Shown one piece after another: positions 21,174 through 25,033 of a DNA stretch of 50,009 bases. Origin of the DNA: Nitrosopumilales archaeon (GTDB lineage: Archaea > Thermoproteota > Nitrososphaeria > Nitrososphaerales > Nitrosopumilaceae); contig QYQE01000031.1 in the NCBI GenBank assembly GCA_007280335.1, positions 1 through 50,009 on the forward strand. The letters run 5' to 3'. The notes below the pieces were generated by a model, which did no database searches, was not told where the DNA came from, and saw only the letters and a program-made list of their open reading frames with translations. Every line of letters starts with the position of its first letter. The first letter of the stretch is position 1. A program made the position numbers and the translations under genes.

Positions 21174-22154
21174 TTACTGACTCCTCTCTACTACAAAATC
21201 TAAAAGAGACAAGAGCTCACTTTTTGCTGAACCTTTGTAGCTCGATAATGACTTTTTTGCTGCATTAGAATACTGTAGCGCCTTTTTCCTAACTGTATTT
21301 TCTATTCCCATAGACGAAATTATTTTTACTGCATTTTCCAATTCTTTTTTTGATATGGTGGAATTTCCAAATGCATTTAGAATTGCTTGCTTTTTCTGAC
21401 CGCTTGCTTTGTTTATTGCAAGAAGGATGGGAAGTGATTTTTTACCTTCACGCAAATCGTTTCCAACAGGTTTTTTTGTAACTTTTGGATCCCCGATTAT
21501 GCCAATTAAATCATCAACTATTTGAAATGCTACGCCTAGATTTATTCCAAAAGAAGAAAGATTTGCAACGTCCTTGCTTTTCGTATTTGCACTAATTGCT
21601 CCCATGGCGCACGCGGCAGCAAATAGAGCAGATGTCTTTTTTTCTATCATTTCGATGTATTGTTTTTCTGTAGGAATTTTTTTCGACTGTGCCATCATTA
21701 TATCAAGTGCCTGACCTTCACATACTTCGCTGCACGCCTTAGCAAGATTGGAAACTAGTCCAAGACGCACGTCCTTTGGCATCTTGGTATCACGTGAAAT
21801 GGTTTCAAATGCTTTTGAGAACAAGACATCTCCAGCCAAGATGCCAATCGGTATTCCAAACTTAGTGTGTGTTGTGGGCACACCATGTCGCATCTCATCA
21901 TTATCCATGATATCATCATGAATTAGTGTGAAATTGTGAACCATTTCTATTGCCGCGGCTGCAGGCAATGCTTGTTTTATAGTGCCACCAAGAATTTCAC
22001 AGCTCTTTATGACCATGAATGGTCGTAATCTCTTTCCCCCATGTTTTATGAGGTATAAGGCTGCTTCGTAGATCTCTTCTGGATTGCCATGAAGATTTGA
22101 GAGAAGAAACGAATTTACTTTTTTTGCATTTTTTGATATGGAATTAAATGACAT
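21174..22154 (-). CDS. geranylgeranyl diphosphate synthase-type prenyltransferase
   Basis: This all-alpha isoprenyl diphosphate synthase makes the C20 chain for archaeal ether lipids. The first aspartate motif is HDDIMDNDEMRHG, the second QIVDDLIGIIGD, with GGKRLRP and KKTSALF. The ATG at 22154 overlaps the IDI stop codon as TAATG; an ATG at 22172 within IDI is the alternative start. It lies in the operon IPK-IDI-GGPPS-GluRS, downstream of its own substrate-making enzymes. Exact chain length is inferred from archaeal context. Confidence 0.92.
   Translation of the reverse strand: MSFNSISKNAKKVNSFLLSNLHGNPEEIYEAALYLIKHGGKRLRPFMVIKSCEILGGTIKQALPAAAAIEMVHNFTLIHDDIMDNDEMRHGVPTTHTKFGIPIGILAGDVLFSKAFETISRDTKMPKDVRLGLVSNLAKACSEVCEGQALDIMMAQSKKIPTEKQYIEMIEKKTSALFAAACAMGAISANTKSKDVANLSSFGINLGVAFQIVDDLIGIIGDPKVTKKPVGNDLREGKKSLPILLAINKASGQKKQAILNAFGNSTISKKELENAVKIISSMGIENTVRKKALQYSNAAKKSLSSYKGSAKSELLSLLDFVVERSQ
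21181..21186 (-). promoter_or_regulatory. Shine-Dalgarno site deciding the gltX TTG start
   Basis: GAGGAG (read leftward) sits inside the end of the GGPPS gene, seven bases before the TTG. It contrasts with leaderless first genes and shows SD-led initiation for an internal operon gene. Confidence 0.6.
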
Positions 22155-22789
22155 TATTTTTTGAGCTCCCATTTGTTGTCAGGAAAATGATGCTTGAGTG
22201 GTTTTTCAAGAATTTGCTTGACATCATTTCTAACCCACTTGTTCAAAATTGAATTGTGTTGCGGTAGAATGTCTTTTTTGGATTCTGACAAAAAATACAA
22301 TGCAACAATCATCCATGGGCAGTAGATCTGTGGAGATTTTTTAATATCATTTAGAAGATCATCTAACGTATTCCATTTTATATCGTTGATTTCTTCTTTT
22401 ACTAATTTTATTTTTGTAGGATCATCAACTATGCCAATCAAAGTTCCACATACTTCGTTTTCAGAACCAACGTCCTTGTATGGAACATGGTATTCAAATT
22501 TGAACAAGTAATCAAGCTTACAAGATATTCCCAATTCCTCTGGTAGCCTTCTTTCTGCAGACGAAACGTACGTCTCTGATTGTCTTGGGTGACTTGCTAC
22601 AGTTCCATCCCAGTCACCTGGCCATAGCATCTTGTCCATGCTGCGTTGTGTTAGAAGCATCTTTCCTTCTTTGTTAAACAAAAGAATTGTAAAAGCCCGA
22701 TGTAACTTGCCGTTTGGCAAATGGCATTTTACCTTTTCCTCAGTTCCTATTGGTTTGTCATTACTGTCTACCAGAATCAAATATTCCAT
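22154..22789 (-). CDS. idi: type I IDI-like Nudix protein lacking the catalytic Cys
   Basis: Type I isopentenyl-diphosphate isomerase interconverts IPP and DMAPP. The 211-residue product keeps metal ligand histidines His23 and His30 (CHLPNGKLHRAF) and His67 (ASHP), the modified Nudix box ETYVSSAERRLPEELG, and the acidic ENEVC that carries the second proton-handling Glu. At the place of the catalytic Cys (E. coli Cys67 in VCGHP) it has Ala65 (VASHP). Either chemistry is changed, another residue substitutes, or this is not an isomerase. ATG 22789 lies ten bases after the IPK stop; a TTG at 22825 would overlap it. The context among IPK and GGPPS supports the isoprenoid role. Confidence 0.82.
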   Translation of the reverse strand: MEYLILVDSNDKPIGTEEKVKCHLPNGKLHRAFTILLFNKEGKMLLTQRSMDKMLWPGDWDGTVASHPRQSETYVSSAERRLPEELGISCKLDYLFKFEYHVPYKDVGSENEVCGTLIGIVDDPTKIKLVKEEINDIKWNTLDDLLNDIKKSPQIYCPWMIVALYFLSESKKDILPQHNSILNKWVRNDVKQILEKPLKHHFPDNKWELKK

Positions 22790-22799
22790 GTCTGCCCTT

Positions 22800-23540
22800 T
22801 TATCCTCTGAATACAGTTCCTTCAAATTTTTTACCTTTTATAGCGTTTACAATTCTCTCAGGTTTGTTACCGTTTACCAAAAACACCTTAACTCCACCCT
22901 TTGAGATCATAGTGGCCTCTTTTATTTTACGAGCCATGCCTCCAGTCACGTCCATTCCTACCTTTGAAATGGCCGTCTTCTGACCCTTTATCTCGTGTAG
23001 GAGCTTTTTTGTTTTCATGTCAGAATATACCCCATCTACATTTAACACAAAAATTGCCAACCTTGGTTTTAGAACTTTTGCTAAGATTCCCATAATTCTG
23101 TCTCCAGATAAAATATAGAATTTGTTTTGACCATGCCATAATACATCCCCATATGATACCGGAACAAGTCCGTCTTTGGCAATTCTTGAAATTTCTTTTA
23201 CCTTTTTAGTGATAGCTTTATCACCAAACATAAAATCAGTTGGAGGTAGGCAGTAAGGATTTAGTTTATTTTTTAAAAACGAATCCAGGATTATCTTGTT
23301 CAATTCTATCATGGAATTTTTTACTACTGCTACACCCTTTTTACTATATTTTGCAGGTTTTGTGTGCATGTCATACCTTACGGACCAATAGTGACCAAAT
23401 GATCCTCCACCATGCACTATGATTATAGGCTCTCTTACTTTTTTTAATTGAATGGCAATCTTGTTTATTGCCGAAATGTTAGGAGTCAGAGGCTTTTGCT
23501 TATTGGTTATAACAGAACCTCCAAGCTTTATCAAAATCAT
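22800..23540 (-). CDS. ipk: isopentenyl phosphate kinase
   Basis: IPK phosphorylates isopentenyl phosphate to IPP in the archaeal mevalonate pathway. The 246-residue amino-acid-kinase fold begins MILIKLGGSVITNK; the family His lies in VHGGGSFGHYW. Other motifs are LSGDRIMGILA, VFVLNVDGVY equivalent, and DVTGGMARKIKEA near the ATP site. It heads a leftward operon with IDI, GGPPS and GluRS. The TATA box TTTTTAAA is 23 bases before the ATG, so the operon transcript is leaderless. Confidence 0.93.
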   Translation of the reverse strand: MILIKLGGSVITNKQKPLTPNISAINKIAIQLKKVREPIIIVHGGGSFGHYWSVRYDMHTKPAKYSKKGVAVVKNSMIELNKIILDSFLKNKLNPYCLPPTDFMFGDKAITKKVKEISRIAKDGLVPVSYGDVLWHGQNKFYILSGDRIMGILAKVLKPRLAIFVLNVDGVYSDMKTKKLLHEIKGQKTAISKVGMDVTGGMARKIKEATMISKGGVKVFLVNGNKPERIVNAIKGKKFEGTVFRG

Positions 23541-23645: not shown

Positions 23646-24074
23646 TCAAGTTTCTATCGCCTTTACAAAATCGTCAAAATACTCATTAATGATTTTTCTG
23701 ATCTTATTTGTTGAAAAAATACTGGCGAATCTAAGAAGACCTCTTAATTTCAAGTCAATATCAATTGTGATTCTGGTACCTCCTGGCACGCTTTCATATT
23801 TTTTTGTAAAGTGGCTGCCCCTGGCATCTCCGGACAGAACAAAAGTTTCATGAATTTCAGGCGATTTTATCACATTTTTAGTCATGACCGCAAATTCTCT
23901 ACCTGCTATTTTTCCATGAATTTCAACTACAGAAGTAAACTCGCGAACTGAGCGTATTCTGATTAGTTTGAAGTATTGTGGTAGCTTTTGTGTAAAACTT
24001 TCAAAATCAGTTCCTGCTTTGAATGCATTCTCCCTTTCTACATTGATAATCTTTACAAGTTGTATTTTTTGCAA
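23646..24074 (-). CDS. SRPBCC/START-like small ligand-binding protein
   Basis: The 142-residue protein has the pattern of the polyketide cyclase/START-like superfamily. N-terminal strand and helices (FESFTQKLPQYF) precede a curved beta sheet (TSVVEIHGKIAGREFAVMTKN, TFVLSGDARGSHFTKKYE, GTRITIDIDLKL). A long C-terminal helix, IRKIINEYFDDFVKAI, closes a cavity. Ligand unknown; a lipid or other hydrophobic molecule would fit the operon. Start is TTG supported by AGGA six bases upstream, eight bases after the mevalonate kinase stop. Confidence 0.7.
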   Translation of the reverse strand: MQKIQLVKIINVERENAFKAGTDFESFTQKLPQYFKLIRIRSVREFTSVVEIHGKIAGREFAVMTKNVIKSPEIHETFVLSGDARGSHFTKKYESVPGGTRITIDIDLKLRGLLRFASIFSTNKIRKIINEYFDDFVKAIET

Positions 24075-24082
24075 TTTTATTC

Positions 24083-25033
24083 CTAAGTATTTGCAAGTCC
24101 ATTAAAATCGATTTTAGCAGAAAAACATTCGCTATGGGCTTTTAGATTAGATAGAGTTTTTTCAAGATTAGACTTGTCCACAAGTGCAATTATGCATCCT
24201 CCTCCACCAGCACCAGTTATTTTTGCACCAAACGAAGTTTTTTTGGATTCTCTTATCAAAAGTGTAAGCTTTTCAGTAGAGATGTTTATTCTTTCTAGCA
24301 AATCCTGATTCTTTGACATTAGCAAGCCAAGTGATTCCAGATCATTTTTTTCTAAAGACACAAGAGCATTTTGAATTAGGATTGATTCCTGATCACAAAA
24401 TGAAGCAAACAAGTCTTCGTTATTTTCTCGGAATCTTCTTACGTTTTCAACAACCTCACTAGTAAAATGCGCCTGTTTTGAATTTGCAATTACAAGATCA
24501 AAATTGGCTTTTGAATTGATTTTCTTAAAACCGTTTTTCATATCGTATTCCATCAGCCCCCCAAAAGTACAGACAGAACAGTCTGCACCTGACGTATTTT
24601 CAAATATGGTACGTTCCGCTTCTATTGCAATTTTCAAAATTTCCTCTTTTGGCAGCTTTTCAAATAATCCCATAACTGATGCCGCAACTGCAACACAACA
24701 AGCAGATGAGGAGCCAAGACCAATGCCTGCAGGAATCTCAGAGTCTATCTTTATCTCAATTCCTACATTTTTTCCCGATTTTTCTATTGCTTTTTTTGCA
24801 ATATACAAAAATGGTTTCATTACATCCATAGATCTGTCCGGCGTTGATAGTGAATCTGTACTTATTTCCACATTACCAATATTGGATTTTATCTTGATCT
24901 TTTTTTCATCAATTATTTGTGATGTAGCTGTAATTCGCTTATCAATTGAGCAAAGTATCGCTTTTATGCCGTACACCACAAAATGCTCGCCAAATAAAAT
25001 GACCTTTCCAGGTGCTGAAGCAACAGATTTCAT
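24083..25033 (-). CDS. mvk: mevalonate kinase
   Basis: The 316-residue GHMP-family kinase phosphorylates mevalonate in the archaeal isoprenoid pathway. Motifs are SAPGKVILFGEHFVVYG (motif 1, with the substrate His), PAGIGLGSSSACCVAV (ATP-binding motif 2), NTSGADCSVCTFGG with the catalytic Asp, and GAKITGAGGGGCIIAL (motif 3). It begins in an ATGA overlap with the MEMO gene stop. The following SRPBCC gene ends the transcript. Confidence 0.95.
   Translation of the reverse strand: MKSVASAPGKVILFGEHFVVYGIKAILCSIDKRITATSQIIDEKKIKIKSNIGNVEISTDSLSTPDRSMDVMKPFLYIAKKAIEKSGKNVGIEIKIDSEIPAGIGLGSSSACCVAVAASVMGLFEKLPKEEILKIAIEAERTIFENTSGADCSVCTFGGLMEYDMKNGFKKINSKANFDLVIANSKQAHFTSEVVENVRRFRENNEDLFASFCDQESILIQNALVSLEKNDLESLGLLMSKNQDLLERINISTEKLTLLIRESKKTSFGAKITGAGGGGCIIALVDKSNLEKTLSNLKAHSECFSAKIDFNGLANT

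Follow-up and report, generated by a model that had tools for sequence, protein, structure and literature searches.

The window, a stretch of 50,009 nucleotides from a Nitrosopumilales archaeon, carries on its minus strand a gene string that includes mevalonate kinase (mvk, 24083..25033; TIGR00549, 219.6 bits against a cut-off of 163), isopentenyl phosphate kinase (ipk, 22800..23540; NF040647, 210.5 bits, cut-off 120), a homolog of type I (Nudix) isopentenyl diphosphate isomerase (IDI) that lacks the catalytic cysteine (22154..22789), and a prenyl synthase of the geranylgeranyl diphosphate (GGPP) synthase type (ggpps, 21174..22172; PF00348, 247 bits), the top NCBIfam match of which is GGPP synthase, under that model's cut-off. 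The IDI-like frame opens with an ATG at 22789, closes with a stop codon at 22154-22156, and encodes 211 residues. As the initial annotation had it, the gene sits between ipk and the prenyl synthase: it starts 11 nt past the end of the ipk frame immediately upstream, and its final 19 nt overlap the start of the prenyl synthase. Neither NCBIfam nor Pfam yields a match for the gene of 142 aa between mvk and ipk (23646-24074).

The assignment to type I IDI rests on curated models and on matches in the PDB by both sequence and predicted fold. The protein scores 115.8 bits with TIGR02150 (cut-off 105.8) and 134.6 bits with NF002995 (cut-off 127), both of them equivalog models of type I IDI, and its matches in NCBIfam and Pfam are confined to Nudix and type I IDI models, with none to type II IDI. 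A phmmer search of the PDB aligns residues 2-163 to the IDIs of Salmonella and E. coli, and human IDI is matched as well. The AlphaFold2 model (mean pLDDT 87.8) finds type I IDIs throughout its best 15 PDB fold matches, ahead of every Nudix hydrolase, with TM-scores of 0.84-0.85 to the top E. coli IDI chains when normalized to the E. coli chain. The box of Nudix pyrophosphohydrolases reads GX5EX7REUXEEXGU (PMC5389931); that of the window protein, S66-x5-E72-x7-RR-L-P-E-E-L-G, has the RR typical of IDIs and departs from the hydrolase consensus. Beyond the common fold, the protein has a family-specific C-terminal extension (residues 165-211; 22157..22297, minus strand), which is longer than in sampled bacterial IDIs, has conserved W185, H201, and W207, and is predicted by AlphaFold2 to form two helices and one strand at high confidence.

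Type I IDI is the textbook case of a Cys/Glu pair acting as acid and base on an unactivated alkene, and alanine mutants of its cysteine (Cys67 in E. coli, Cys139 in yeast) are inactive or nearly so. In these enzymes, a glutamate donates a proton to the double bond of isopentenyl diphosphate (IPP), and the conserved cysteine withdraws the one at C2 (PMC3509576); in yeast IDI, Cys139, the equivalent of Cys67, and Glu207 form the catalytic pair, with Cys139 as the base for the C2 proton (PMC5925831). Alignment to the E. coli enzyme puts Ala65 of the window protein (codon 22595..22597, minus strand) in the Cys67 column, within the motif WDGTVASHP (22587-22612, minus strand) that corresponds to E. 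coli WTNSVCGHP, as had been claimed from the VASHP sequence. The earlier statement that the metal-binding histidines and the ENE residues are kept is likewise borne out: His23, His30, His67, Glu110, and Glu112 match E. coli H25, H32, H69, E114, and E116, respectively, with Glu110-Asn-Glu112 at 22454..22462. Tyr100 (22490..22492) corresponds to Y104, Trp159 (22313..22315) to the active-site W161, and Glu85 to E87, all on the minus strand, and the diphosphate-binding residues Lys19, Arg49, Lys53, and Arg81 to K21, R51, K55, and R83. The metal ligands, the E87 match, Glu112, Tyr100, and Trp159 are invariant in 121 aligned family sequences. The glutamate half of the acid-base pair is intact and the cysteine half missing. 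Compared with E. coli Idi (PDB 1nfs), the window protein has the fold, the metal ligands, Tyr104, Glu116, Trp161, and the diphosphate-binding residues in common, but Cys67, T63, N64, and S159 are replaced by Ala, Asp, Gly, and Cys, and its C-terminus is longer. The same Cys-to-Ala state exists in an engineered C67A chain of the E. coli enzyme (PDB 1ow2, NSVAGHP). Among natural proteins, human IDI2 (PDB 2pny) has the type I IDI fold with the catalytic Cys replaced by Ser, unlike the Ala here, and its paralog IDI1 keeps the Cys.

The alanine is a property of the whole family, taken here as GTDB Nitrosopumilaceae. Across 136 family genomes, each at least 90% complete, the exact coding pattern WDGTxASHP occurs in 131, and two more have Ala in the variant motifs WDGSVASHP and WDATFASHP. 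No gene was found in the remaining three of the 136, in which ipk is truncated (two genomes) or was not found (one) and the only prenyl synthases are 32% identical, with no close ggpps; the missing gene is therefore likely to reflect an assembly gap over the locus. Site 65 is Ala in all 121 aligned sequences and in seven further divergent members (L140, L163-L168). Given that 128 of 128 family sequences from many assemblies read Ala and that the exact pattern recurs in 131 of 136 genomes, a sequencing error is excluded, and a real Cys obscured by any error of sequencing, assembly, or alignment, the last being ungapped around the site, has a negligible probability. The initial annotation had named relatives with Cys and a misread base here as grounds for refuting the observation, a condition contradicted by every family sequence read. 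Across 122 distinct copies, every GCN codon is used for Ala65 (GCA 83, GCT 26, GCC 7, and GCG 6). In five usable pairs, dN/dS of about 0.04-0.10 indicates strong purifying selection on the gene, and Ala65 itself is under selection.

The type II IDI, an FMN-dependent enzyme (TIGR02151) unrelated to type I in protein and cofactor, is the isomerase that the initial annotation expected elsewhere in the genome if the type I-like protein had changed function. No protein exceeds the TIGR02151 cut-off in the window's genome, where the model weakly matches IMP dehydrogenase, dihydroorotate dehydrogenase, and triosephosphate isomerase, or in any of the 136 genomes of the family, many of which are 99% complete; this speaks against that expectation. 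In a phylum sample, by comparison, 243 of 300 genomes have a type II IDI over the cut-off. Its 44 family genomes all have the type I homolog and no strong type II match, and the reciprocal pattern, with type II IDI present and type I absent, is seen in six genomes of the same order that belong to other families. The assembly behind the window is a draft in 84 contigs with 95% completeness, so that a type II enzyme could have been missed and the type I homolog could be redundant; against the family-wide count and with the syntenic slot filled by the type I homolog, this is very improbable. No second type I IDI was found among the Nudix proteins of the window's genome, where only the window gene matches a type I model, and a motif scan of viral contigs returned no match.

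Three loci were examined from two sister families within the same order, and in each of them type II IDI is flanked by ipk and ggpps; two of the genomes have the full string eno-rpsB-memo-mvk-ipk-[IDI-2]-ggpps-gltX and the third has ipk-[IDI-2]-ggpps-gltX. The window repeats this string, except that the type II slot is filled by the type I protein without the Cys. In records of named relatives (Nitrosopumilus, Nitrosotalea, Nitrosotenuis, and Nitrosarchaeum), the gene next upstream is ipk in 78 of 78 uncut loci and the gene next downstream is ggpps in 79 of 79. In the genus of genome G082 (L157:9098-10763) and in G388, the isomerase gene adjoins ggpps, but ipk has shifted to another contig; in G082, the gene next upstream of the isomerase is mvk. 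The shared slot argues that the Cys-less protein has replaced type II IDI in place, the two having gene position and presumed reaction in common, and this replacement is the strongest evidence for the probable isomerase role.

It is thus probable, with roughly three chances in four, that the protein is a genuine IPP:DMAPP isomerase, probably the only one of the organism and the family, which has occupied the slot of an ancestral type II IDI and does without a counterpart of Cys67. The curated models, the PDB fold, the gene slot, the retention of the gene, the selection on it, the invariant residues, and the tree support a type I IDI. The proposal that isomerization runs with a different acid or base is favored indirectly, by the slot replacement and the universal retention, from which we infer the isomerase role. 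The objections are that Cys67 is held to be the C2 base and that Asp61 and Ala65 resemble loops of some Nudix hydrolases, such as YDTSSAGH in L177. With the catalytic Cys lost, these features could also befit a Nudix pyrophosphohydrolase, or a regulator, that has isoprenoid diphosphates as its targets, with an unrecognized third class of isomerase making DMAPP, and Nudix hydrolases can indeed retain the His/Glu metal ligands (L124-L131). Such YfcD-like hydrolases (PDB 2fkb; L124, L125, L127-L131) resemble the window protein in fold and metal ligands, but they have an RE Nudix box, lack Tyr100 and Trp159, and occur in genomes that also have type II IDI, whereas the window protein retains the RR, Tyr100, and Trp159 of IDIs, occupies the type II slot between ipk and ggpps, and is the only protein with a type I signature found in its genome. 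In a tree built from a small sample, the family forms the sister group of the sampled IDIs that have the Cys, and the two unite with 100% support, away from Nudix hydrolases. A hydrolase or regulator is therefore unlikely on these grounds.

If the protein is the isomerase, its reaction would largely follow that of the E. coli enzyme. By homology, His23, His30, His67, Glu110, and Glu112 would hold the Mg/Zn, and the basic Lys19, Arg49, Lys53, and Arg81 would bind the diphosphate. Glu112, helped by Tyr100, would then protonate C4 of IPP, and Trp159 would stabilize the tertiary cation. Because residue 65 is Ala, the C2 proton would have to be taken by another group, provided that the enzyme is active. 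The candidates can be ranked as Cys157, then metal-bound water or the diphosphate of the substrate, and then Asp61 or His101, both of which are lineage-specific and invariant in the family. Cys157 (22319..22321, minus strand; E. coli Ser159), two positions ahead of the active-site Trp159, is the leading candidate base and a potential substitute thiol. All 121 aligned sequences have it, as do the divergent genera read in addition, whereas in IDIs with Cys67 its column is occupied by Ser, Thr, or other residues. Its presence touches in part on the nearby Cys at the same active-site location that the initial annotation had listed as grounds for refutation. A thiol moved to this position could do the work of Cys67 with the chemistry unchanged, a special case of the isomerase reading rather than an exclusive alternative to it. 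The pattern of conservation makes this attractive, yet a second group of Cys-less proteins, in family f47, has no Cys at position 157, so that Cys157 is not a general solution; on balance, a moved thiol is a tentative proposal, with perhaps a third of the weight on its side.

Family f47 (genomes G218 and G393) lacks type II IDI, which its sister family f43 has, and its ipk and ggpps adjoin with no gene between them. The only IDI candidates found in f47 are Nudix proteins with WEFPASH at the Cys site (L156:8581-9096 in G218 and L179:1471-2019 in G393), and their best NCBIfam match is IDI, at 103.9 bits, below the cut-off, for the G218 copy. With very few genomes, f47 is suggestive of a second Cys-less case. 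It could be that Cys-less proteins form a sister subfamily within the type I IDIs that carries out allylic isomerization with no thiol at the canonical position, another group abstracting the proton, and that such enzymes displaced type II IDI on at least two occasions within the phylum, once in this family and separately in f47; the odds of this broader scenario fall a little short of even. Lombard and colleagues have already reported that Thaumarchaeota and Haloarchaea have a type I IDI transferred from bacteria (PMC3533463). As for the loss of the Cys in this lineage, no report was found in the literature searched, most subscription journals lying outside its reach. The top-scoring plasmid match, a type I IDI-like protein of Neorhizobium plasmid pNCHU2750a (L144), is 39% identical to the window protein and shares RR.PEELG and GSENE with it, but has the Cys (NSCCSHPR) and is without the C-terminal extension.

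Should a major family of ammonia-oxidizing archaea rely on a sole isomerase that works without the Cys, the role assigned to this residue is not universal, and the site would offer a direct natural test of C2 proton removal. The isomerase step is required for the membrane lipids of these archaea, including those behind ocean temperature reconstruction. Caution is also warranted in annotation, as reliance on catalytic residues would mislabel the gene as dead. Elsewhere, the genome of Haloferax volcanii, included as a control, matches the type I IDI model and has no type II IDI at E ≤ 1e-10. In another family of the phylum, a 62%-complete genome contains a canonical type I IDI with CCSHP (L006; G234:C59:3045-3515), which originated from either transfer or contamination.
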